Of a stretch of 64,000 nucleotides of DNA, positions 23,957-46,716 are shown one piece after another. The translations under genes and the position numbers were made by a program. Source of the DNA: Synechococcus sp. SynAce01 (GTDB lineage Bacteria > Cyanobacteriota > Cyanobacteriia > PCC-6307 > Cyanobiaceae); NCBI RefSeq assembly GCF_001885215.1, contig NZ_CP018091.1:2604001-2668000 (forward strand). Reading direction: 5' to 3'. How positions within the stretch are numbered: the first letter of the stretch is position 1; the number at the start of each line of letters is the position of its first letter. The notes below the pieces were generated by a model. It did not search any database. It was not told the origin of the DNA and saw nothing but the letters and a program-made list of their open reading frames with translations.

Positions 23957-24981
23957 GCAGCAAGCTCCGCAGGCAGCCCTTTTGGGACCTAGGCTGGTAC
24001 GCATATACCAGTCGTCACTGCCATGGCTATGAATCGGATCCAGTTCCAGGCCAGCCTGTCGCTGCCCCAGTTTATTGAGCTCTACGGAACCGAGCAAAAA
24101 TGTGAAGTTGCCCTGGAACAGGCGCGCTGGCCTGATGGTTTCCGTTGCCCACGTTGTGAGGGCAAGGAGTACGGGCTCATCATTGGCAGGCGCCACAAGC
24201 GCTATCAGTGCCGGAGCTGTCGTCATCAAGCCACCCTCACGGCCGGTACCATCTTGGAGGCAACAAAGTTACCTCTGACCACCTGGTTCCTTGCCTTCTA
24301 CCTCGTCGGCCAAGCCAAGACAGGAATCTCCTCACTAGCTCTGAGGCGTCATCTCGGTGTGAACTACCGAACGGCATGGTTGCTTCAGAACAAGATCATG
24401 CAGGCAATGAAAGAACGTGATGGCGCCTATGTCCTCAGAGGAAGGGTGCAGGTGGATGATGCCTACCTTGGCGGAGAACGCTGTGGTGGCAAGCCTGGTC
24501 GTGGATCGGAGAACAAGGTGCCGGTCGTGGCAGCCGTCTCTGTCGATGAGGCGGGCCACCCCCGGTATATAAAACTTGCCACCGTGCCCACGTTCTCTTT
24601 TGCCGCTATTGCTGATTGGGCCCAAGATTCACTGGCGATAGGCTGTGAAGTGATCTCCGATGGGCTGGCTTGCTTTCGCGCCGTTGCAGAAGTCGGTTGC
24701 TTCCATCATCCTGTGGTCGTAAAGGGTCGTCATCCCAATGAATTACCAGAATTCCGTTGGATTAACACGGTGCTCAGCAACTTGAAAACCAGCTTCAGCG
24801 GCAGCTTCCATGCCCTTCGCTTCGAAAAGTACGCTGATCGCTACTTGGGCGCCTTCAGCTACCGCTTCAATCGGCGGTTCAATCTGGCGGCAATGACCGA
24901 GCGTGTGGTTCATGCCATCTGCAGCTGTCAAGCACGGCCGGAACGACTCCTGAGGTGTGCGGAGTTTGCTACCTAATCGAG
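23948..24981 (+). mobile_element. IS1595-family insertion sequence
   Basis: 1034-base element with terminal inverted repeats of 24 bases, 21 matching (23948-23971 and 24958-24981), and flanked by an 8-base direct repeat TCCTGTTA (23940-23947 and 24982-24989), the duplication size of the IS1595 family. It carries one intact transposase gene whose stop lies inside the right repeat. Intact ends and exact duplication indicate a recent insertion. Confidence 0.93.
24023..24976 (+). CDS. IS1595-family transposase
   Basis: 317-residue transposase of the ISXO2-like DDE type. An N-terminal zinc ribbon (CPRC at about 42-45 and CRSC at about 63-66) is followed by a helix-turn-helix and the catalytic core, with the first Asp in VQVDDAYLGGE, a second in EVISDGLACF, and the last acidic/Asn region in GRHPNELPEFRWINTVLSNLKT and FSGSFHALRFEKYADRYLGAFSYRFNRRF. 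It looks full length. ATG 24023, with 24029 as alternative. Confidence 0.93.
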   Translation: MAMNRIQFQASLSLPQFIELYGTEQKCEVALEQARWPDGFRCPRCEGKEYGLIIGRRHKRYQCRSCRHQATLTAGTILEATKLPLTTWFLAFYLVGQAKTGISSLALRRHLGVNYRTAWLLQNKIMQAMKERDGAYVLRGRVQVDDAYLGGERCGGKPGRGSENKVPVVAAVSVDEAGHPRYIKLATVPTFSFAAIADWAQDSLAIGCEVISDGLACFRAVAEVGCFHHPVVVKGRHPNELPEFRWINTVLSNLKTSFSGSFHALRFEKYADRYLGAFSYRFNRRFNLAAMTERVVHAICSCQARPERLLRCAEFAT

Positions 24982-24988
24982 TCCTGTT

Positions 24989-25678
24989 ATGAGCTGGCGA
25001 CCTGGCTTCAACAGCGGCCTCAAGGCCCTGAGCCTGGGGCTCTGGGGGGTGGTGCTGGTGCAGAGCGGCGCCAGTGGCCGTCTCGACCTGCTCCTGCGCG
25101 CCGTCTTCCATCCGCTGGTGTGGATCAGTGGCGGGCTGCTGCTGGCGCTGGCCGTGCTCGAACTGGTCAGCGGTCAGGAGGCGCCGCTACCACGGCGCCA
25201 GCGCCTGGGCTTTCTGGCGGGCTGCCTGGCGGCGTTGGCGGTGTTGCTGCTGCCGCCGGTGCCCTCCTTCGCCGACCTGGCCGCCAACCGCAGCCAGGAC
25301 TTTCAACCGGGCCCGGGCCTTAATTTCGTTGTGCCACCGGGCCAACGCAGCCTCACCGAGTGGGTGCGCCTGCTGCGCAGCGAACCGGACCCCAAGCTGC
25401 ACCAGGGCGATCCGGTCAAGATCAGCGGCTTCGTGCTACCCGTGCCGGGTGATCGCCCCCAGCTGGCGCGCCTGCTGGTGCGCTGTTGCCTGGTCGATGC
25501 GGTGCCGGTGGGCCTGCCCGTGCTCTGGCCTGCTGATCAACCCACCCCCGAAGCCGATCTGTGGTTGGCGATTGAAGGGGTGATGGAGAACGAAACCGTG
25601 GCCGGCCAGAATCGCAGTGTGGTGCGGGTGCGCCAGGTCCGCCCGATCCCCCGCCCCCAACGGCCGCTGGAACCATGA
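24989..25678 (+). CDS. TIGR03943 family protein, permease partner
   Basis: 229-residue membrane protein. Two or three helices fill the first 90 residues; the remainder is a soluble domain with GDPVKISGFVLPV and LLVRCCLVDAVPVGLPV, typical of TIGR03943 (YcgQ-like) proteins, which pair with the preceding permease. Its ATG begins in the last base of the right-hand IS target duplication, so the gene was rebuilt intact by the insertion, but it is now cut off from the permease transcript unless the IS drives it. Role probably in solute or metal transport. Confidence 0.8.
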   Translation: MSWRPGFNSGLKALSLGLWGVVLVQSGASGRLDLLLRAVFHPLVWISGGLLLALAVLELVSGQEAPLPRRQRLGFLAGCLAALAVLLLPPVPSFADLAANRSQDFQPGPGLNFVVPPGQRSLTEWVRLLRSEPDPKLHQGDPVKISGFVLPVPGDRPQLARLLVRCCLVDAVPVGLPVLWPADQPTPEADLWLAIEGVMENETVAGQNRSVVRVRQVRPIPRPQRPLEP

Positions 25679-27047: not shown

Positions 27048-27878
27048 CTAACCGATCGCCCCCTGGCGCGGTGCCAGGGTCAGGGCACCCAGGAAGCCCA
27101 GCAACTGCACAATCACCACACAGGGCCCGGACGGCAGGTTCAAGGCCCCCGAGAGCAGCAGGCCCAGCACCGCGCAGAGGGCCCCGAGGCCCGAGGCCAG
27201 CAGCACGTAGGAATTGAAGTGGCTGCTCACCAACCGGGAGGCACAGGCGGGGATCACCACAAACGCACTGATCAGCAGCACCCCCACGGCCTTGATCGAG
27301 ATCGCCACCACCAGGGCCAACAAAAGAATGAACAGCAGACGATGAACGGGAACGGCCACCCCACGCGAGAGGGCGAGCGATTCATCGATGGTGAGCAGGA
27401 TCTGGTCGCGGCGGGTGAGGGCCAGATAGGCCAGGGCCGTGAGCAGCAGGGCCGAGATCAGGCCCAGATCCAGCCAGGACACACCGAGGATGTCGCCGAA
27501 TAGCAGGCTCTGGATGTTGCCCTGGTAGGTGCGCACGAAGCTGAGGGCCACCACCGCCACCGACAACGACGAGGAATAGACGATGTTGAGCAGGGCATCG
27601 GTGGGCAGGCGGCTGCGCTCCACCAACCGACTCACCAACAGGGCGAAGATCACCGCAAAGGGGATCAACACCAGGGTGGGATTGAGCCCCAGCAGGATGC
27701 CGATAGTGATGCCCAGCAACGACGAGTGGCCCAGGGCATCGCTAAAGAAGGAGAGCTGGCGCAACACGGCAAAACTGCCCAGCAGGCCGCCGAGGGCGCC
27801 GGTGAGCAGGCCACCGAGGAGGGCCCGCTGCATGAACGGCAACTGCAGCAGCTCCAGGAAGGGGGCGGCTTCGCTCAT
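27048..27878 (-). CDS. znuB: zinc ABC transporter permease
   Basis: 276-residue inner-membrane permease of the ABC-3 family with about eight helices, carrying zinc across the inner membrane with ZnuC and ZnuA. FSDALGHSSLLGITIGILLG, PTDALLNIVYSSSLSVAVVALS and KAVGVLLISAFVVIPACASRL are typical. ATG 27878 shares one base with the znuC stop (TGATG), so the two are coupled. Order znuA-znuC-znuB on the minus strand, divergent from zur. Confidence 0.9.
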   Translation of the reverse strand: MSEAAPFLELLQLPFMQRALLGGLLTGALGGLLGSFAVLRQLSFFSDALGHSSLLGITIGILLGLNPTLVLIPFAVIFALLVSRLVERSRLPTDALLNIVYSSSLSVAVVALSFVRTYQGNIQSLLFGDILGVSWLDLGLISALLLTALAYLALTRRDQILLTIDESLALSRGVAVPVHRLLFILLLALVVAISIKAVGVLLISAFVVIPACASRLVSSHFNSYVLLASGLGALCAVLGLLLSGALNLPSGPCVVIVQLLGFLGALTLAPRQGAIG

Positions 27879-28657
27879 CAGGAGGATGGGTTGGCGTGGC
27901 GATGGTGGTACGGAACGAAACCCCGGCCGTAGACACGCTCCAGCTGGGAGGGGCTGAGGGCGTGATCGGGCGGCCCGGAGCAGCAAAGGCGGCGGTTGAG
28001 GCAGAGCACGCCATCGCAGGTCCGGCGCACCATCTCCAGGTCATGGGATACCTGCAGGACAGTCCAGCCCTCGCTGCGGCGCAGGTCGAACAGCAGGCCA
28101 TAGAACTGCTCGGCCATCTGGCTGTCGAGGCCGGCCTGGGCCTCATCGAGCACCAACAGGCGGCGGGGGCGCACCACGCAAAACGCGAGCAGCACCCGTT
28201 TGGTCTGGCCGCCGGAGAGCTCGCTGATCAGGCGATCGGCCAGGTCGCTGCAGTGGGTTTTGGCCAGGGCCCGGCGAACGGCCGCTCGCCGGGCCTCGCC
28301 TCCAACCCAGTTGAACCGAATCCCGGCCGGATCCCAGCCCAGGCCCACGAATTCAGCCACGCTGAGTGGGCAGCGGTTGCGCACACCGAAGCTCTGGGGC
28401 AGGTAGGCCACCTGGTCGCGCACCAAAGAGGGCAGCTGACCTTTGCGCCCGAGCCGCCGGCCCAGCAGCCGCACCTCGCCGCTCCTGTGGGGAAGGATGC
28501 CGAGCAGGGCCTGCACCAGGCTACTTTTGCCGGCACCGTTGGGACCGATCAGGGCGGTATCGCTCTCGGCCGCCAAATCAAAGCTGACGTTCTCCACTGC
28601 CACGGCGCCCTCCCGGCAGACCGTCAGCCCGCTGACTTCGAGAACCATTTCCGCCAT
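27878..28657 (-). CDS. znuC: zinc ABC transporter ATPase
   Basis: 259-residue ABC ATPase. Walker A GPNGAGKSS (about 39-47), Q-loop YLPQSFG, signature LSGGQTKRV, Walker B LLVLDEAQAGLD and switch His in VSHDLE are all in place; the usual Pro after DE in Walker B is Ala-Gln here, as in other metal-type ATPases. It energises zinc uptake through ZnuB. It lies 32 bases after znuA and overlaps znuB. Confidence 0.92.
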   Translation of the reverse strand: MAEMVLEVSGLTVCREGAVAVENVSFDLAAESDTALIGPNGAGKSSLVQALLGILPHRSGEVRLLGRRLGRKGQLPSLVRDQVAYLPQSFGVRNRCPLSVAEFVGLGWDPAGIRFNWVGGEARRAAVRRALAKTHCSDLADRLISELSGGQTKRVLLAFCVVRPRRLLVLDEAQAGLDSQMAEQFYGLLFDLRRSEGWTVLQVSHDLEMVRRTCDGVLCLNRRLCCSGPPDHALSPSQLERVYGRGFVPYHHRHANPSS

Positions 28658-28689: not shown

Positions 28690-29640
28690 TCAGGGCGCGA
28701 AGGCCGCCGCCAGGGCCTTGCCGTTGCGGCGCATCTGGCTGAGGTAGTAGCCAGGCTTGCCGGCCTCGGCCGGGCCGGTTTCAAGCGGATCAAACACGCC
28801 GATCTTCACGCCCAGATCGGCGGCGAGGGCATTGAAGGATTGGCGCCCCTCCTGGGGCTCGCTGAGCAGGGTCTTGAGCTCGGTCTGCTCGACCAACTGG
28901 CTGACGCGCTGCAGGTCGGCCGGGGTGGGATTCAGCTCGGGAGACTCCACCACAAAGGCGACCTTGAGCTGGTAGCGCTCGGCGAAGTAGGGGGCGAAAT
29001 CGTGATAGGCCACGAAGGTTTTGCCAGCAAACGGTTTGAGCTGGCTGGCCAACTCGGCATTGAGGGAGCGGAGTTCATCGACGAAGGCAGCGGCATTGGC
29101 GCTGAACTGCTCGGCGCAGTCGGGCTTCGCGGCGATCAGGCCATCGCGGATGGTGTCCACCTGCTGGACGGCGCGGAGGGGATCGAGCCAGACGTGGGGA
29201 TTGATCGGACCGTGATCGTGGCCGTGATCGTGGCCGTCGGCATGGTCGGGGTCTTTGGCGTCTTTTTCAGTGTTCTCCAGGGTGGGGATGCCGGCGCTGG
29301 AGTCGATCACCTGGAGGCCGCTGTTGTCGGCGTTGACGATCAGCTTGTCGAGGAAGGTTTCCAGGCCCAGGCCGTTCTTGACGAGCACGTCGGCCTTCTG
29401 CAGCCGCACCAGATCACCGGGGGTGGCCTGGAAATCGTGGGGGCTGACCGTGGTTGGCATCAGGGCCTCCACCGTGGCGCAGGTGCCGGCCACAGCTTTG
29501 GTGAATTCAGTGATCGGCAGGAAGGTGGTGACCACATGGAGGGCGGCATCGCTGGAGGGCGCAGGCCCAGACGCATCGCTGCCACAGGAAGCCAGCAGGA
29601 CGGCGGCCAGCAGGGCCATCGGGCGGAGCGGTGCGTTCAA
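28690..29640 (-). CDS. znuA: zinc-binding lipoprotein
   Basis: 316-residue periplasmic cluster A-I binding protein that captures zinc for ZnuBC. A short hydrophobic segment ends in the lipobox LLASC, so the protein is probably lipid-anchored. Zinc ligands are in the TTVSPHDF, NPHVWLDP and AYHDFAPYFA regions, with Glu/Asp in the C-terminal lobe. A His/Asp-rich loop (DHADGHDHGHDHG, about 125-140) is characteristic of zinc-specific members. The start is unclear: TTG 29640 gives a positive n-region; ATG 29619 is the alternative. A Fur-family box lies upstream at 29696-29710. Confidence 0.9.
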   Translation of the reverse strand: MNAPLRPMALLAAVLLASCGSDASGPAPSSDAALHVVTTFLPITEFTKAVAGTCATVEALMPTTVSPHDFQATPGDLVRLQKADVLVKNGLGLETFLDKLIVNADNSGLQVIDSSAGIPTLENTEKDAKDPDHADGHDHGHDHGPINPHVWLDPLRAVQQVDTIRDGLIAAKPDCAEQFSANAAAFVDELRSLNAELASQLKPFAGKTFVAYHDFAPYFAERYQLKVAFVVESPELNPTPADLQRVSQLVEQTELKTLLSEPQEGRQSFNALAADLGVKIGVFDPLETGPAEAGKPGYYLSQMRRNGKALAAAFAP

Positions 29641-29695
29641 AGGAGTGACCAGAACAAACGGATCGGGCCGCCAGAATCGACCAGCGGCGATTTGA

Positions 29696-29710
29696 GAATG
29701 GTACTCATTC
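29696..29710. promoter_or_regulatory. putative Zur box between znuA and zur
   Basis: A 15-base 7-1-7 imperfect palindrome (GAATGGT-A-CTCATTC; five of seven positions pair) in the divergent znuA/zur space. The Fur family binds such sites. It shares 11 of 15 bases with the site before the porin gene at 31513. It is well placed to shut off znuACB when zinc is plentiful and perhaps to control zur itself. Confidence 0.7.
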
Positions 29711-29811
29711 AGGAAGCTATGCAGGCCGGCTTTGGCCAATCAGCCCCTGGCGAGCGGCGACAAGCGAAGCTCACTCCATAGGATCGCGTGGTGTTCTCAG
29801 TGCCCTTCGCC

Positions 29812-30237
29812 ATGGCCGCCCAGGTCGCCGATCCAGCGGTCCGCCAAGGTCAGCTCAACCCCAAACAGACCCATCTGCTGGAGCAACTGCAACAGGCCAG
29901 CGAGGAACTCACGGGCCAGGAGCTCCATGCTCGCCTGCGCGGAACCCCCCACGGCATGGGTCTGGCCACCGTGTATCGCCACCTGCGCACCCTGCAGCAA
30001 CGCGGCCTGGTGCGCTGCCGCCATCTGCCCAGCGGCGAAGCCCTGTTCGCTCCCACCGAACGGGATGAGCACCATCTCACCTGCGTCGATTGCGGCAGCA
30101 CGGTGGTGCTGCAGAGCTGCCCGATGCACGAGGCCCACCTGAGTGCCAGCCAGCTGGGTGGCTTCCAGCTCCTGTTCCACACCCTCGAATTCTTCGGGCT
30201 CTGCGCCGGCTGTCAGGAGCGCCAAAACTCGGCTTAA
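29812..30237 (+). CDS. zur: zinc uptake regulator Zur (Fur family)
   Basis: 141-residue metalloregulator. The winged-helix domain has GMGLATVYRHLRTLQQRGLV; the dimerisation domain has RDEHHLTCVDCG and the C-terminal CAGC, which with CVDC form the structural zinc site. It is divergent from znuACB, the usual context of Zur. With Zn(II) it should bind Fur-type boxes and repress zinc-uptake genes. ATG 29812 is preferred over GTG 29788. The last codons run into an 18-base tandem repeat. Confidence 0.9.
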   Translation: MAAQVADPAVRQGQLNPKQTHLLEQLQQASEELTGQELHARLRGTPHGMGLATVYRHLRTLQQRGLVRCRHLPSGEALFAPTERDEHHLTCVDCGSTVVLQSCPMHEAHLSASQLGGFQLLFHTLEFFGLCAGCQERQNSA

Positions 30238-30273
30238 GCCCAAGACTCGGCTGAAGCCCAAGACTCGCCCTCA
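30221..30273 (+). repeat. 18-base tandem repeat at the zur 3' end
   Basis: Three consecutive near-identical units (GCCCAAGACTCGGCTGAA type), the first (17 bases) forming the last codons and stop of zur, the others non-coding. It probably arose by slippage and lies in the spacer to the convergent dioxygenase gene. Confidence 0.8.
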
Positions 30274-30321
30274 GCCCAGACCAGCAGCCAAACCAGTTTC
30301 TTGATCGATGCCCGGCCCGCT

Positions 30322-30987
30322 TCAGTCGCCCCAGATCCGCAGCAGGTTGCTGTAGCTGCGGCTGATCAGGTCGAAGGCCTCCCCCTTGCCCTGCTGGCTG
30401 AACAGGAGCCGCCGGGCTGTGTCGAGCTCAAACAGAAGTTCCCGTTGCTCGGCGCTGCGGATGCGGCTCTGGATCCAGCCCACGCAGACCAGCCGATCGC
30501 CATCGCTCACGGGCTCCACCCGGTGCAGCAGGGTGCTCGGGTAGACGATCAAATCGCCGGCAGGGAGCCGAAAGGTCTCCTCACCATGGGGAAACTCCAG
30601 CACCAGTTCGCCGTCGCTATAGGCATCAGGCTCCGATAGAAACAAGGTGAAGGAGAGATCGGATCGCCCCTCCGCCATGTAGGCGTTATCCACGTGGCGG
30701 CCATAGCCCTCACCGGGGCCTGAGCGGCAAAAGCGCAAGCTGTGGATCCGCGCCGGCAGGGCGGCTGAGGCCAGCAGGGGATGGCCCTGCAAGGCCTGAT
30801 GCACCAGCGGCAGCAGGCTTTGATGCAAGGCCGAACCCCGCGGCAACTGGCGGTTGTGCTTCACGGTTCGGGCATGCCAGCCGGCGCTGTCTTGGCCCGG
30901 GCGCCAGTCGGCCTCGGGAGCGAGCAGACGACGGCACCAACCGGCGAGCTGGTCGGCTGGCAGCAGCGAGTCGATCTGGAAACGCAT
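30322..30987 (-). CDS. PKHD-type Fe(II)/2-oxoglutarate hydroxylase (PiuC-like)
   Basis: 221-residue dioxygenase of the PiuC/YbiX class. The iron site is HVDN (HxD) in YGRHVDNAYM and the distal His in STLLHRVEPV, with the 2-oxoglutarate Arg soon after (DRLVCVGW region). ELVLEFPHGEETFRLPAGDLIVYPS is typical of this group. Relatives are often iron- or siderophore-linked, and here it sits in a zinc block. ATG 30987 gives the standard length. Substrate unknown. Confidence 0.85.
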   Translation of the reverse strand: MRFQIDSLLPADQLAGWCRRLLAPEADWRPGQDSAGWHARTVKHNRQLPRGSALHQSLLPLVHQALQGHPLLASAALPARIHSLRFCRSGPGEGYGRHVDNAYMAEGRSDLSFTLFLSEPDAYSDGELVLEFPHGEETFRLPAGDLIVYPSTLLHRVEPVSDGDRLVCVGWIQSRIRSAEQRELLFELDTARRLLFSQQGKGEAFDLISRSYSNLLRIWGD

Positions 30988-31178
30988 CGGAGCAGAAACA
31001 AAGGGATGGGGGCGCTGCAGCGGGCGGGCGGGCTGGAGTGGGGCTGGCTGGCGCGGGCCTCGTAACAAAAAGCACCCGGGCGGGTGACCGTTCCAACCCA
31101 GCGCTTCAACCCACCGCTTCTGCGACCCACGGCTGCTGAGGCCCATTCAGAATCTCTCTCACACGATTCGGATCGACC

Positions 31179-31439
31179 ATGTCACGACCCAGCATCGCCC
31201 TCTTTCTTGCCGCCAGCGGACTGATCGCCGGCGTGGCGGGCTGCGGCATGGTCCCTGGATTGAACGAGCAACGGATGCCCTGGGACAGGGAATCGCGGCG
31301 CGATAACGACGACAGGGATGACAACGAAGACCAACAAAGGGAAGGCCGTGAATGGGGCGAAGACAGGGAAGGCGGCGAGGGTGGCGAAGGAGGAGAGGGA
31401 GGCGAAGGCGGTGAAGGAGGAGAAGGCGACGACGACTGA
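31179..31439 (+). CDS. small acidic Gly/Glu-repeat lipoprotein
   Basis: 86-residue protein with a lipoprotein signal (LIAGVAGC, lipobox cysteine at residue 22). The mature part is extremely hydrophilic: Asp/Arg/Asn-rich, then about eight GGE/GEG repeats and a DDD end. Such an acidic, unstructured anchor could bind cations at the membrane. It lies between the dioxygenase and the Zur-boxed porin. No family recognised. Low-complexity sequence of this kind could also be a fast-evolving spacer gene. Confidence 0.6.
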   Translation: MSRPSIALFLAASGLIAGVAGCGMVPGLNEQRMPWDRESRRDNDDRDDNEDQQREGREWGEDREGGEGGEGGEGGEGGEGGEGDDD

Positions 31440-31512
31440 AGAGCTCCAGCTCCCTTAGCCGGCGGCCCAACTGCTCAAAGACCACAAACCAGGCCCTTTG
31501 CCATCGCAACGC

Positions 31513-31527
31513 GAACGATTATCATTC
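31513..31527. promoter_or_regulatory. putative Zur/Fur box before the porin gene
   Basis: A 15-base 7-1-7 palindrome GAACGAT-T-ATCATTC (six of seven positions pair), 70 bases upstream of the porin ATG. It resembles the box between znuA and zur (11 of 15 identical), so zinc control by Zur is likelier than iron control by Fur, though both proteins could bind. Confidence 0.7.
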
Positions 31528-31596
31528 TTACCAAGATCCGAGCTGGCTTCGCCACCCGGATGTTGCGCAAACCGTCCGTCCGCCCTCCAGCCGCCC

Positions 31597-33207
31597 ATGT
31601 TCACCCGCCTGATCGCCCCTGCAGCCCTGGGTCTGCTCTCCCCTTTGGCCCCCATCCACGCCCCGGCCACGGCTGCTCCCGCCACAGTCCCAGCCACCGT
31701 TCAGGCCACCGCGATCAACCTCGCCGCAATCGACGCCTACGCCGCCTCAGCGCGATCAGGCCTGGAGCAGGTCACCAGCATCACCCAGTTCTCCGATGTG
31801 CAACCCACCGAGTGGGCCTATCAGGCCCTCTCCAGCCTGGTGGAGCGCTACGGCTGCGTGGCGGGTTATCCCGATGGCACCTTCCGTGGCAAGCGCTCGC
31901 TCAGCCGCTGGGAAGCCGCTGCCCTCCTCAACGCCTGCCTGGATCGGATCACCGAGGTGACCGATGAGCTGCGCAGGCTGATGAAGGAGTTTGAAACCGA
32001 ACTGGCCGTGCTCAAGGGCCGGGTCGATGGCCTGGAGGCCAAAGTCGGCGAGCTGGAGGCCAGCCAGTTCTCCACCACCACCAAGCTCAGCGGCCTGGCC
32101 ACCTTTGTGGTGGGGGCCAACGCCTTCAGCGGCAGCGCCAATGCCGAGGTGGACTCCGCCCGCGCCCAGGTGGGGGCCACCACCTTCAGCTACGACCTGC
32201 AGCTCAGCCTTGACACCAGCTTCACCGGCAAGGACCTGCTGCGCTCGATCCTGCGGGCCGGCAACTTCAGCGATTCGGTCTTCGGTGGCGCCGGACCAAC
32301 CGGCGGCATCGCCGGCTTGGAAGTGGCCTTCCAGGAAGACTCCGGCCCCAATTCCGTGGGCATCGACAAGCTCTACTACCAGACACCACTCGGCGCCGGC
32401 TTCACCGCCACCGTTGGCGGCCGCGTTGGCCAGGAAGACATGCTCGCCCTTTGGCCCAGCGTCTATCCAGCTGACACCGTCTTGAACGTGCTCACCCTCA
32501 ACGGGGCACCGGTGGCCTACAACAAAAACCTCGGTGCCGGTGCCGGCCTCTGGTGGCAGTCCAACGGCTTCAGTGTCAGCGCCAACTACGTGGCGGCCAA
32601 CGGCAACCTCGGCAATCCCAGTGAGGGTGGCATCGGCACCAACGCCTCCGCCGGCACCGGCACCGTTCAGATCGGTTACGGCGCCGAGCAGTGGGGCCTC
32701 GCCGCGATCTATTCCTACCTACAGGCCGGCGTCGATGTGCCTGGCGCCACGCCTTTCACCGCAGCAGCCCTGGTGGAGAACCCCGCCAGTCGCACCAATG
32801 CCGTTGGCCTCAGTGGTTACTGGCAACCGGCCAACTCCGGCTGGATTCCCTCGATCAGCGCTGGCTGGGGGATCAACACCACCTCCTACGACAGCGATCA
32901 GAGTGATGGTGCGTTGACCACCAGTCAGTCGTGGATGGTGGGGCTGCAGTGGAGCGATGCCTTCTTTAAGGGCAATGCCCTCGGCATGGCCGTGGGACAA
33001 CCGGTGTTTGCCACCGCCCTGCAGGGCGGCGAGACCCCCAACGACGGCAATTTCGCTTGGGAGTGGTGGTACAAGGTTCAAGTCACCGACAACATTTCGG
33101 TGACCCCAGCGCTCTTCTACCTCAGCCGCCCTTTGGGTCAGGACACACCCTCGGGTGAGAGCTTCCGCCAGCTTGGCGGGCTCGTGAAAACCACCTTCCA
33201 GTTTTGA
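31597..33207 (+). CDS. SomA/OprB-type porin with SLH domain
   Basis: 536-residue outer-membrane porin. A signal peptide (to about residue 27) is followed by an SLH domain (about 63-118: FSDVQPTEWAYQAL, then GCVAGYPDGTF and LSRWEAAALLNAC) that ties the protein to peptidoglycan, a coiled coil (about 118-155) and a 16-strand-type beta-barrel domain to the final Phe. It admits small solutes or metal ions. With a Fur-family box upstream it may be a zinc-limitation porin, as known for marine Synechococcus. ATG 31597; an open frame from 31498 would run through the operator. Confidence 0.88.
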   Translation: MFTRLIAPAALGLLSPLAPIHAPATAAPATVPATVQATAINLAAIDAYAASARSGLEQVTSITQFSDVQPTEWAYQALSSLVERYGCVAGYPDGTFRGKRSLSRWEAAALLNACLDRITEVTDELRRLMKEFETELAVLKGRVDGLEAKVGELEASQFSTTTKLSGLATFVVGANAFSGSANAEVDSARAQVGATTFSYDLQLSLDTSFTGKDLLRSILRAGNFSDSVFGGAGPTGGIAGLEVAFQEDSGPNSVGIDKLYYQTPLGAGFTATVGGRVGQEDMLALWPSVYPADTVLNVLTLNGAPVAYNKNLGAGAGLWWQSNGFSVSANYVAANGNLGNPSEGGIGTNASAGTGTVQIGYGAEQWGLAAIYSYLQAGVDVPGATPFTAAALVENPASRTNAVGLSGYWQPANSGWIPSISAGWGINTTSYDSDQSDGALTTSQSWMVGLQWSDAFFKGNALGMAVGQPVFATALQGGETPNDGNFAWEWWYKVQVTDNISVTPALFYLSRPLGQDTPSGESFRQLGGLVKTTFQF

Positions 33208-33297
33208 TCGCCCGGTCTTAACTATGAAATTGGTCTGGCAACGATCGATCAACCTTCGTGGCCGCCCGTTCCACCAACCTTCATAATCAGATTCGAA

Positions 33298-33416
33298 ACG
33301 GTTTCAGCGGGGAACAGCCGCTGAAGGCAACAGGGAAAGTGCCGTTCGAATCGGCCGCTGTCCCGCAACTGTGATTTGGCTTGTTTTCAAGTCGATAAGT
33401 CAGGATTCCTGCCGTT
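33298..33416 (+). promoter_or_regulatory. cobalamin riboswitch
   Basis: The B12 box GCCGCTGTCCCGCAACTGTGA at 33354-33374 is near-canonical, preceded by the conserved AACAGGGAA and GTGCC...AATC elements and followed by AGTCAGGATTCCTGCC closing the fold. It lies directly before cbiM and should turn the cobalt operon off when adenosylcobalamin is abundant. Confidence 0.93.
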
Positions 33417-33452
33417 TTGCACAATCCAACCGTCTAACCTGCGAGGCACAGT

Positions 33453-37303: not shown

Positions 37304-37392
37304 TCCACGCCAAGGGGCGGCTCCAGGGCATCAGGCTGGTTTCAAGGCGTCAGACTGTGCGCAGAACCAGGCCTTGGGCCGTCCTCCCCTCC

Positions 37393-38526
37393 ATGACCAG
37401 CACCACCACGGCATCAACTGCTCCAGCCCCTGATCGCACCGACGCGCTGGTTACGGGCCTGCCGGTGACCATCCTCACCGGTTTCCTTGGGGCTGGTAAA
37501 ACCACCTTGCTCATCCACATCCTCAGTAATCAGGAGGGGATCAAAACCGCCGTTCTGGTCAATGAGTTTGGCGAAATCGGCATCGACAACGATCTGATCA
37601 TCTCCACTGGCGACGACACGGTGGAGCTGAGCAATGGCTGCATCTGTTGCTCGATCAATGGCGAGCTGCTTGAGGCCGTTGAACGGATCCTTCAGCGCCC
37701 TGACCCCGTCGATTATCTGGTTGTTGAAACCACAGGCCTGGCTGACCCCTTACCGGTTGCCATGACCTTCCTGGGAAGTGAGCTGCGTGACAGCACCCGA
37801 CTCGATTCGATCATCACTTTGATCGATGCCGAGAATTTTGATGCCGAGCTGGTGAACAGTGAGGTGGGTCGGGCCCAGATCGTCTACGGCGACATCCTCT
37901 TGCTGAACAAAGGAGATCTGGTCGAGGAAGAGCGCTTGCTGGCGTTGGAGCAGCAGCTTCTCGAGATCAAGCCGGAAGCTCGGATCCTGCGTTCGATCAA
38001 GGGGGCAGTTCCGCTGCCCTTGCTCCTCAGCGTTGGGTTGTTCGAATCCGACCGGATGGCGGAGGAGCAAGCCGCCGAAGCCGCGCACGATCACAGCCAC
38101 GACGAGCATCACGGCCATGACCATGGGCATCACCATGATCACGGGCATGACCACGGCCATAACCACGAATCCAGCCACGCTGCAGAAGACCCCGCAGAAC
38201 ACCCGTCAGACCATCTGGCGATCGAAGGCTTCACGTCGCTGTCGTTTGCAGCAGAAGGCCCCTTTGGCTTGCGCAAATTTCAGAATTTTCTCGACAATCA
38301 ACTGCCGCCCGGGGTGTTTCGCGCCAAAGGCATCCTCTGGTTCAAGGAAAGTGAGCGGCGCCATGTGTTCCACCTGGCCGGTAAGCGTTTCTCGATCGAC
38401 GACAGCGACTGGCCTGGTGAGCGCAAGAACCAGTTGGTGCTGATCGGCAAAAACCTCGACCACGCCAAATTGCGTGAGCAGCTGCGGGCGTGTGTTTCCA
38501 AGGACGCCGGCAAGGGATTCGGCTGA
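37393..38526 (+). CDS. CobW/COG0523 metal-chaperone GTPase
   Basis: 377-residue G3E GTPase of the CobW group, which delivers metal to target proteins using GTP. Walker A GFLGAGKTT is near residue 32, the metal-binding CxCC is in NGCICCSI (about 88-95), ETTGLADP and NKGDLVE follow, and a His/Asp-rich loop of about 30 residues (near 231-260) should hold many metal ions. The CobW C-terminal domain ends the protein. ATG 37393. Between cobalt uptake systems the metal may be Co, but zinc is also possible for His-rich members. Confidence 0.88.
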   Translation: MTSTTTASTAPAPDRTDALVTGLPVTILTGFLGAGKTTLLIHILSNQEGIKTAVLVNEFGEIGIDNDLIISTGDDTVELSNGCICCSINGELLEAVERILQRPDPVDYLVVETTGLADPLPVAMTFLGSELRDSTRLDSIITLIDAENFDAELVNSEVGRAQIVYGDILLLNKGDLVEEERLLALEQQLLEIKPEARILRSIKGAVPLPLLLSVGLFESDRMAEEQAAEAAHDHSHDEHHGHDHGHHHDHGHDHGHNHESSHAAEDPAEHPSDHLAIEGFTSLSFAAEGPFGLRKFQNFLDNQLPPGVFRAKGILWFKESERRHVFHLAGKRFSIDDSDWPGERKNQLVLIGKNLDHAKLREQLRACVSKDAGKGFG

Positions 38527-38549
38527 TCAGCCCCCATACTTGCCATGCA

Positions 38550-38715
38550 GTGGTTCCCCGGATTCAGCCTGGGGAGGCAACGAGGAAAGTCCGGTGCGGG
38601 TCAATCTCCCCAGGGGGATGACCACTCCAGTCCGGCACTGTCCCGCAGCTGTGATGGACCCGGTCAAAAGCTTCGGCCTTGAATCCTGTCCTCAGTCAGA
38701 ACGCTCGCCCTGTTT
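38550..38715 (+). promoter_or_regulatory. second cobalamin riboswitch
   Basis: The B12 box GCACTGTCCCGCAGCTGTGA at 38635-38654, GAGGAAAGTCCGGTGC upstream of it, and AGTCAGAACGC downstream form the conserved core of the cobalamin riboswitch. It begins soon after the cobW-like gene and ends about 47 bases before the HupE-type gene, so it controls the transporter and not the GTPase. Confidence 0.9.
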
Positions 38716-38761
38716 CGCCCCTTTTCCATCCCATCGCCGGCGCGGACCGGTCGTACCCACC

Positions 38762-39861: not shown

Positions 39862-40929
39862 ATGCCCACCCACGTTGACCAGTCCAAGACAAAGCATCGC
39901 GGCCTCTCCGCCCTGCTGGTGGCTGCGACAGTCGGAGCCCTTGGAATCGCCACGATCGCTTGCACCCCATCGGAAGACTCGCAGCAGACGAAGGAGGTGA
40001 ATGTCTACTCCGGACGGCACTACAACACGGACAAAGAGCTTTACAAACAGTTCACCGAAGAGACCGGCATCAAGGTGAATCTGCTGGAAGCCAAGGACGA
40101 CGAATTGCTGGCGCGGCTCAAGACCGAGGGAAACAACAGCCCGGCCGATGTGCTGGTGCTGGTCGATGCGGCCCGGCTGCAGCGGGCCCAGGATGACAAC
40201 CTGTTTCAGCCGATCGACTCCGAAGCCCTGAACCGCGACGTGCCCGCCGAGTTGCGTGATCCCAAGGGGAACTGGTTCGCCCTGACCCGCCGGGCTCGGG
40301 TGATCATGGTCAACCCTGACGTGGTGAACCCTGATCAGGTCACCAGTTACGCCGATTTGACCAATCCCGCTTTGAAGGGCAAGCTCTGCCTGCGCAACAG
40401 GGCCAGTGTCTACAACCAATCGCTGGTGGCTGATGTGCTGGTTCAAGAAGGCGAGGCCGACACCGCGCAATGGGTGAAGGGAATGGTGGCCAACGTGACT
40501 CAGCCACTCTTCACCAGCGACACGCCGATGCTGCGCGCCCTCGGCAATGGTGAGTGCGGCGTCACGGTGGCCAACCAGTACTACCTGGCCCGCATGCTCT
40601 CACCCGAGGCCCCTGCCAACGATCGCGACCCCGCCGCCAACATTCGCGTCGTCTTTCCCAATCCCACCCACGTCAACGTCACCGCAGCCGGTGTCACCAG
40701 CAGCTCCAAGAATCCCAAGGCGGCCACCATGCTGATCGAGTTTCTGGCCTCACCTAGCACAGGCAAGGGCTACGCCTCGGCAAACAACGAATACCCACTC
40801 ACAGGGTTCGGTGACAACCCAATCCTCAACAACTGGGGAAGCTTCACAGCCTCGAAGGTCAGCGTTGAGCAGTTGGCCAACGCGAACAAGCAGGCCACCG
40901 AATTGATGGCCGAAAACGGCTGGAAGTAA
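39862..40929 (+). CDS. futA: iron ABC transporter binding protein FutA
   Basis: 355-residue Fe3+-binding protein. The N-terminal hydrophobic segment ends in a lipobox (IATIAC, Cys about 34), so it is membrane-anchored in the periplasm. VNVYSGRHYNTDKELYKQF and the double Tyr in VANQYYLARM supply iron-binding tyrosines, and VFPNPTHVNVTAAGV is typical of the IdiA/FutA group. It lies 59 bases before futB, so the two form an operon. No Fur box could be identified in the upstream 200 bases. Confidence 0.93.
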   Translation: MPTHVDQSKTKHRGLSALLVAATVGALGIATIACTPSEDSQQTKEVNVYSGRHYNTDKELYKQFTEETGIKVNLLEAKDDELLARLKTEGNNSPADVLVLVDAARLQRAQDDNLFQPIDSEALNRDVPAELRDPKGNWFALTRRARVIMVNPDVVNPDQVTSYADLTNPALKGKLCLRNRASVYNQSLVADVLVQEGEADTAQWVKGMVANVTQPLFTSDTPMLRALGNGECGVTVANQYYLARMLSPEAPANDRDPAANIRVVFPNPTHVNVTAAGVTSSSKNPKAATMLIEFLASPSTGKGYASANNEYPLTGFGDNPILNNWGSFTASKVSVEQLANANKQATELMAENGWK

Positions 40930-45957: not shown

Positions 45958-46216
45958 GACCTGGTGCTTTTTGAGCCCCCGATCTGTGCGATCCGCACGC
46001 TGGGCCAACGAAGACTGGCGGCAGAGTTTCAGCGACCCGATCCACAACCTCAACGCCATGATCCGAATCCTGGGTGATCGCGACAGCCTGCTGGCCGCTC
46101 TCACCGCCCACTGGGCCGACCAATCCATCGGCCTGAGCGCGCCACCACAAGCTGCCGATCGCTTCGCACTCCAGCGTCGTGTTCAGGGCGCTAAGTCGCG
46201 CCGATCTGCCGACTAG
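45956..46216 (+). CDS. small hypothetical protein
   Basis: 86-residue protein with WANEDWRQSFSDPIHNLNAMIRIL and LTAHWADQSIGL segments, predicted helical. The ATG overlaps the 3' end of the shared motif, which makes the start doubtful. Its stop overlaps fur by four bases on the other strand. No family recognised. Confidence 0.45.
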   Translation: MTWCFLSPRSVRSARWANEDWRQSFSDPIHNLNAMIRILGDRDSLLAALTAHWADQSIGLSAPPQAADRFALQRRVQGAKSRRSAD

Positions 46217-46716
46217 AAGCTGGATTGGGCGCCCGACTCGCCTCTGTCCTGGCAGTTGCGGCAAAGGGCCCTGACATTGAGAACGCATTCGATCAGGCGA
46301 AATCCCTGGGCGCTGGCGGCCTGCTCGCCTGCGGTAAGCACCGGGGCACTCTCGAATTCCTCGGTGCGGCCGCAGCCGATGCAGACAAGATGGTGGTGGT
46401 CGCGGTGGGTGTCACTGAACAACTCAAAGCGACGCCCCCCTTCGGGCAGTTCCAGCTCCCGCAACAGCTCCATCGCGCTGAGCAGGCGCAGGGTGCGATA
46501 AACCGTAGCCAGCGACACTTTCTCTTCTGCCCCCAGCAGGCGCTGGTGCACCTCCTCAGCGCTGAGGTGACTACCTTCGCCGATGCGTTTGAACAGGGCT
46601 AGAACCTTCTGCCGCTGGGGCGTGAGCCTCTGGCCCCGGCCATGCAGGCTGGTGCGCAGTTCAGTGGCCTGCAGTGGTTCGCCGCTGAGGGGGGTGGTAC
46701 GGGCAGACACGAACAC
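46213..46716 (-). CDS. fur: Fur family regulator (ferric uptake regulator)
   Basis: 167-residue metalloregulator. The winged-helix domain has RLTPQRQKVLALF and VSLATVYRTLRLL; the sensor part has DTHRDHHHLVCIGCG and the C-terminal CRNC, giving the HHH regulatory site and the two CxxC of the structural zinc. It probably represses iron uptake genes with Fe2+. GTG start at 46716; the shared motif ends ten bases upstream, suggesting autoregulation. PerR remains possible. Confidence 0.88.
   Translation of the reverse strand: MFVSARTTPLSGEPLQATELRTSLHGRGQRLTPQRQKVLALFKRIGEGSHLSAEEVHQRLLGAEEKVSLATVYRTLRLLSAMELLRELELPEGGRRFELFSDTHRDHHHLVCIGCGRTEEFESAPVLTAGEQAASAQGFRLIECVLNVRALCRNCQDRGESGAQSSF

Follow-up and report, generated by a model that had tools for sequence, protein, structure and literature searches.

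Two palindromic boxes lie upstream of genes with a probable part in zinc uptake in Synechococcus sp. SynAce01, within a stretch of 64,000 nucleotides that we call the window (C1:2604001-2668000 of a one-contig genome of 2.75 Mb; positions without a contig prefix count from its first letter unless stated otherwise). Box A separates znuA, which encodes the periplasmic protein of an ABC importer, from the divergent regulatory gene zur, and box B precedes a gene for an SLH/OprB porin of the SomB ("iron uptake porin") subfamily (31597-33207, forward strand). We consider it likely, from conservation of the motif in relatives, that both boxes are operators of one zinc-repressor motif through which Zur would repress znuA-znuC-znuB and the porin until zinc falls.

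A first-pass annotation had given box A as GAATGGTACTCATTC (29696-29710) and box B as GAACGATTATCATTC (31513-31527), describing them as 7-1-7 palindromes that agree at 11 of 15 positions, the second about 70 bases upstream of an SLH porin. Direct inspection of the window bore this out. Both 15-mers stand where they were placed and are identical at 11/15 positions on the same strand, or 12/15 with one reversed; 69 bases separate the end of box B from the porin ATG at 31597, and the OprB and SLH domains of the protein were identified. The palindromes are imperfect, with 5/7 arm pairs matching in box A (GAATGGT-A-CTCATTC) and 6/7 in box B (GAACGAT-T-ATCATTC). On its own the pair is a weak find, barely beyond chance. 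Allowing up to 3 mismatches, the window holds 2 matches to the box A 15-mer, itself included, against 0.66 expected (equalled by 14/100 shuffles), and 3 to that of box B against 0.34 expected (equalled by 1/100). It is the comparison with relatives that carries the case.

A porin search over 121 genomes provided 20 stretches picked from 19 related genomes. A palindrome search without a preset motif, run on 51 upstream regions (seven from SynAce01), yielded a 15-base motif, TGAGAATNATTCTCA, and a 21-base motif, TGAGAATGATaATCATTCTCA, of 24 bits. Because the 21-base site was found by comparison, it sets better limits for the two predicted Zur-type operators, 29693-29713 for box A and 31510-31530 for box B (both given on the forward strand; motif discovery P21 25.1 and 28.4, respectively), and the best register of box A lies 3 bases to the left of its earlier placement. 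Within the discovery set itself, the 21-base motif occurs upstream of 10/10 znuA genes taken from relatives and, at 13.8 bits or more, upstream of 19/20 porin copies, locus L100 being without it. Matrices that left SynAce01 out agreed, with the reservation of a small leak, since the register of their training sites came from the pooled motif search: that made of znuA boxes, taken from nine other genomes, ranked box B (25.8 bits) and box A (25.1 bits) first and second in the window, with the third-best site at 16.6 bits, 8.5 bits below box A, and that made of porin boxes, 18 from other genomes, gave the same ranks (27.0 and 18.5, third 17.8). The znuA-only matrix also reached at least 14 bits at 21/27 porin loci of relatives with upstream DNA, a count that leaves out L066 and L094, which end at a contig edge. 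The same operator is therefore found at znuA and at the porin and is conserved in relatives, the pattern of a Zur regulon at the level of sequence.

The porin itself passes the SomB model NF033921 (289.7 bits over 59-536, cut-off 100) and combines an SLH domain (PF00395, 29.9 bits) with an OprB barrel (PF04966, 44 bits). A scan of named genomes gave 80 porin loci, each with flanks of at most 7 kb, and 77 of them had upstream DNA. The box was present at 14 bits or more (znuA-only matrix) at 36/77; of 2000 random 460-base windows drawn from these loci, some possibly including boxes, 2.6% reached that score. A tree of 80 proteins (the 77 loci, the window porin and two SynAce01 paralogs; L284, L299 and L315 were dropped as too short) showed where the box is kept: in 13/13 members of the window porin's own clade, 12/13 of its sister clade, 6/7 of a seven-row clade and all three early rows (3/3), with 2/25 in a 27-row clade and 0/16 in a 16-row paralog clade. 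A zur, znuA or cobW gene in the flank was tried as a predictor of the box and proved weak; 21/28 loci linked in this way and 15/49 unlinked ones carry the box, as do 13/18 and 13/41 of the hold-out loci, those unmatched to genomes already used, and linkage gave no significant result in a pair test on the tree. Judged from the tree, the box tracks porin lineage, which is a better predictor than zur linkage. Upstream of porin paralogs the box was found in 0/19 cases from 17 genomes (two from SynAce01; one with 159 and one with 336 bases of upstream DNA), the best scores with the pooled matrices being 8.0 bits (15-base) and 8.6 bits (21-base). Among the loci, L279 comes from a contig titled as a Bifidobacterium breve metagenome-assembled genome and encodes a cyanobacterial-type porin; it is probably misbinned or mislabelled.

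A genome scan with the two sites was among the checks proposed in the first-pass annotation, and in SynAce01 the places matching a pattern fell mostly in zinc loci. In SynAce01, the pattern GAAYGAKWMTCRTTC, drawn up after some of its sites had already been seen, occurred with up to 1 mismatch at six places among the matches listed, five of them in zinc loci and the sixth where an amidotransferase-like ORF begins, at 1260817 of the contig (14.4 bits). A place at C1:1017548, with one mismatch to an earlier pattern, was set aside; it falls within the opening codons of a small ORF, with scores below 13 bits from both matrices. In seven relatives, TGAKAAYNRTTMTCR had six perfect places among the matches listed, four upstream of this porin (genomes G003, G026, G108 and G114), one upstream of an island COG0523 gene (G102) and one beside integrase-like ORFs (G026).

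The regulator encoded next to box A, Zur1 (zur, 29800-30237, forward strand; start uncertain between GTG at 29788 or 29800 and ATG at 29812), has the Fur fold (PF01475, 60.1 bits, cut-off 23.1) and stays below the NCBIfam Zur equivalog PRK11639 (21 bits, cut-off 167). Its best match in the PDB is 7ne9 (E 7.1e-47), which we take to be SynZur of Synechococcus WH8102. The zinc ligands of SynZur are D77, H79, C95 and H115 at the sensory site and the structural Cys4 set C83, C86, C123 and C126 (PMC9337993). Zur1 and a second homolog, Zur2, each keep all eight (4 sensory, 4 structural); the Fur of SynAce01, whose gene (46213-46716) is 16 kb away, is without sensory C95 and H115. At SynZur positions Asp24, Glu25, Arg62 and Arg78, which there replace the canonical site, Zur1 has Glu, Glu, Arg and Glu; the Zur2 residues are Arg, Glu, Arg and Glu, position 78 being Glu in both. 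The gene for Zur2 (C1:973.9 kb; 54% identical to zur) belongs to a second zinc island at C1:962-975.5 kb, which comprises a COG0523 gene, znuB2-znuC2-znuA2, two WD40 genes, another COG0523 gene and zur2. Four Zur-type sites are found there, one upstream of the leading COG0523 gene, one upstream of znuA2, one separating the WD40 genes and one in the interval from the other COG0523 gene to zur2. The segment around the island (C1:958001-976000, L062) also holds a CobW_C-like protein, metallophosphatases, transposase-like ORFs and an FAD enzyme. The first-pass annotation had put inner- and outer-membrane zinc uptake under one regulator. The pairing gains from the conserved motif shared by znuA/zur and the porin, but with a second znuABC-zur island a single regulator is not established.

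This second homolog allows a different assignment, in which box B is read chiefly by Zur2, or by both Zurs with different zinc set-points in a two-sensor network. Its intact set of eight ligands and the znuA2 box, which differs from box B at 1/15 bases, fit such a network, but boxed porins occur in many genomes with one zur found, and a second zur was found in 3/27 genomes only. Zur2 is thus not needed for the box to be kept, and we regard this assignment as doubtful. A chance resemblance of the 15-mers, with a porin free of metal regulation, would suit a bare pairwise match so near expectation, but conservation across genera, the paralog control and the tree speak against it, and we hold it to be highly improbable. 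Another alternative draws on the similarity of repressor motifs: box B would be a Fur operator, at which Fur with iron alone represses the SomB-type porin, and Zur would read only box A. NCBIfam's name for the porin subfamily, "iron uptake porin", agrees with this, as do matches of 14/19 (box B) and 13/19 (box A) to the 19-base classical Fur consensus, and imelysin genes in 5/27 genomes, each within ~1.5 kb of a porin of this SomB-type family. IrpA, an imelysin of Synechococcus elongatus, belongs to the iron-starvation proteins. The znuA-only matrix, however, scores box B above box A, and the motif is absent upstream of feoB in 20/20 cases (best 7.6 bits; one with 213 bases scanned) and of idiA, a periplasmic iron-binding gene that in the window starts at 39862, in 26/27, with 0/27 idiA upstreams reaching threshold with either 21-base matrix. 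These standard iron genes therefore do not use the motif, and the two counts reveal no operator common to the box and the iron genes of these genomes, as would be expected of a Fur regulon. The nearness of the znuA2 box to box B also counts against Fur, as do the several lineages in which the porin stands beside COG0523 and zur genes. Even the imelysin pair has the porin on one side and zur on the other in G063 and G076, which suggests a link to zinc as well as iron. We consider exclusive control by Fur unlikely; dual control of box B by Fur and Zur is possible. Long-chain flavodoxin was tried as a further Fur reference and rejected, being unmatched in SynAce01 and present in 3/16 genomes, whose three loci score at most 7 bits (15-/21-base).

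Several observations weigh against Zur repression of the porin. Six of the 27 porin loci of relatives are without the box (L084, L086, L088, L091, L092 and L093), as are five of the 18 hold-out loci linked to zur, znuA or cobW, and the sister clade keeps it without any of these genes within 7 kb. Many porin boxes are GATAAT-rich and resemble the classical Fur box. In the sister clade the porin is divergent from an imelysin/di-haem pair in 4/13 cases (L256, L258, L262 and L265), and L252 of the own clade is arranged likewise. One of the 27 idiA upstreams exceeds 13 bits with the 15-base matrix (L142, 14.5 bits). A Fur motif was sought in these 27 regions and no AT-rich palindrome emerged, so the Fur and Zur motifs are not directly separable. 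Places 397022 and 694967 of the contig, rejected as sites, lie inside ORFs and score 20.4 bits with the 15-base matrix and below 8 with the 21-base one. None of the Anabaena porins studied is known as a Zur target. Eight genes besides zur pass the authors' thresholds in a WH8102 zur mutant, with no porin among them in the main text of that report (PMC9337993).

With these points taken into account, repression of the porin by Zur is, by conservation, probable, and it suggests a simple sequence of events. When zinc is plentiful, zinc-loaded Zur dimers would sit on the 21-base sites and cover the promoters. At box B, bound Zur would overlap the second hexamer of a promoter-like element, TTGCCA-16-TATCAT (31498-31525, forward strand; a consensus match only, 10/12), which lies inside the box as a -10-like sequence, and RNA polymerase would be blocked. 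The bound repressor would shut off znuA-znuC-znuB and the porin together. As zinc falls, Zur would be released and the outer-membrane pore and the inner-membrane importer would both be made, so that a cell short of zinc probably opens both membranes to it together. In several relatives the porin transcript probably extends into a gene for a COG0523 GTPase, which would deliver zinc to proteins. In WH8102, the Zur box spans the -10 elements of both znuA and znuC (PMC9337993), and by analogy binding and repression by Zur would be expected at boxes A and B. Zinc would pass through the window porin, and either Zur paralog may be the one that acts on the boxes.

The importer set is complete in one gene cluster on the reverse strand: znuA (28690-29619, PF01297, 238.6 bits, with a His/Asp-rich loop), znuC (27878-28657, ABC ATPase, PF00005) and znuB (27048-27878, ABC-3 permease, PF00950, 198.3 bits). 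The proteins fall below the NCBIfam zinc equivalog cut-offs (ZnuA 136/268, ZnuC 115/306 and ZnuB 134/284 bits; AztA-C also below), and zinc is their probable substrate because of the adjoining zur and the His-rich loop. A transposase-like ORF (24023-24976) just precedes a TIGR03943 gene (24989-25678), the latter a frequent neighbour of znu genes. Between zur and the porin lie a gene for a PKHD-type Fe(II) dioxygenase (30322-30990, reverse strand; Pfam/NCBIfam), also there in some relatives, and a small Asp/Glu/Gly-rich lipoprotein-like ORF without family match (31179-31439, forward strand). This ORF recurs in three same-genus relatives, 95% kept in G001 and partial in G002 and G003 (34 and 43 aa aligned).

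The neighbourhood of znuB-znuC-znuA, zur, porin and COG0523 recurs in several genera, a frequent order being a DUF1980-type gene, a hypothetical gene, znuB, znuC and znuA, then zur, porin and COG0523. In cultured Synechococcus sp. WH 5701, zur, a boxed porin and a COG0523 gene stand in a row. The window gene for a COG0523 GTPase (cobW family; 37357-38526, forward strand) is the ortholog of the COG0523 gene at or near the porin in relatives: it shares 69.7-81% identity with the copies at the loci of ten relatives, where the island COG0523 gene reaches 55-64%, and it has the better bit score in 9/10. In SynAce01 and G001, porin and COG0523 are separated by cbiM with a cobalamin riboswitch, cbiQ, cbiO and a DoxX-like gene. 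Elsewhere the gap is 36-72 bases (L102, L109, L113, L297, L300, L313, L318 and L325), ~360-430 bases (L098, L104 and L111) or ~1.6-1.7 kb (L103 and L114), and in L101 and L108 the COG0523 gene is located away from the porin. Where the gap is short, as in several relatives, the two genes are probably transcribed together. The 21-base site was found upstream of 0/10 COG0523 genes; the one in L109 contains, within its opening codons, a match of 13.4 bits to the 15-base matrix.

Some neighbouring features deserve mention in their own right. Two cobalamin riboswitches lie amid the zinc/iron cluster of the window, at 33282-33430 before cbiM and at 38534-38725 before another gene, presumably HupE/UreJ-like. 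A pair of genes for an imelysin (M75) and a di-haem oxidoreductase is divergent from a boxed porin at L258:4265-6591, L103:9127-11495 and L104:8751-11110. A divergent ZnuA-type protein is encoded near zur and porin in genus g59 (L109 and L113) and in Synechococcus WH 5701 (L300); matches to znu parts in L109 and L113 are distant, at 24-40% identity.

The first-pass annotation had appealed to marine Synechococcus as a precedent for joint control of both membranes, which the WH8102 zur mutant does not provide: its RNA-seq shows changes in znuABC and neighbours, bmtA and synw0360, no porin is named there, and the main text does not use the word "porin" at all (PMC9337993). WH8102 Zur (SYNW2401, PDB 7ne9) has in common with SynAce01 the cyanobacterial Zur type, the eight ligands, a box among the znu genes and a box over the promoter; it differs in that znuABC is repressed and the metallothionein gene bmtA activated, with no porin named (PMC9337993). 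SynAce01, unlike WH8102, has zur beside znuA, a boxed porin and a second Zur. A WH8102 proteome lists the porin SYNW2224 among changing proteins, with Zur unmentioned in the available part (PMC3865332). In Anabaena PCC 7120, Zur likewise couples inner-membrane ZnuABC to an outer-membrane route and COG0523 proteins, but this route consists of TonB-dependent transporters rather than an SLH porin (PMC10957091, PMC9705863). The second island of SynAce01, with COG0523, two WD40 genes, znuABC and Zur sites, fits the cluster described for COG0523 subfamily 5, in which COG0523 occurs with WD40 genes, znuABC and Zur sites; a second zur or a porin is unmentioned in the available description (PMC2770081). 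A Zur-regulated cyanobacterial porin had no recognisable report in a partial literature search. Two porins from elsewhere, oprD and MspD, are presumably of other types than the SLH porin. The former is entered in the table of a Zur review (PMC6103462) and the latter, of Mycobacterium smegmatis, is tied to zinc homeostasis (PMC13098993); both, like the window porin, are linked to Zur or zinc.

Porins are usually regarded as unregulated, and TonB receptors as the route for zinc. We lean slightly towards the broader proposal that this SLH porin lineage of Cyanobium-type Synechococcus is a dedicated zinc-starvation porin, repressed by Zur, in several relatives joined to COG0523, and taking the place of the TonB-dependent zinc receptors of filamentous cyanobacteria. 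It would form one regulated path from the outside to cytosolic zinc enzymes, with the cbi operon intervening in SynAce01. The name "iron uptake porin" for the family could then be misleading. A Zur-controlled porin with a box conserved across genera would be a named, testable gene for outer-membrane zinc uptake, and part of the large porin family of picocyanobacteria would be explained as metal-specific members.

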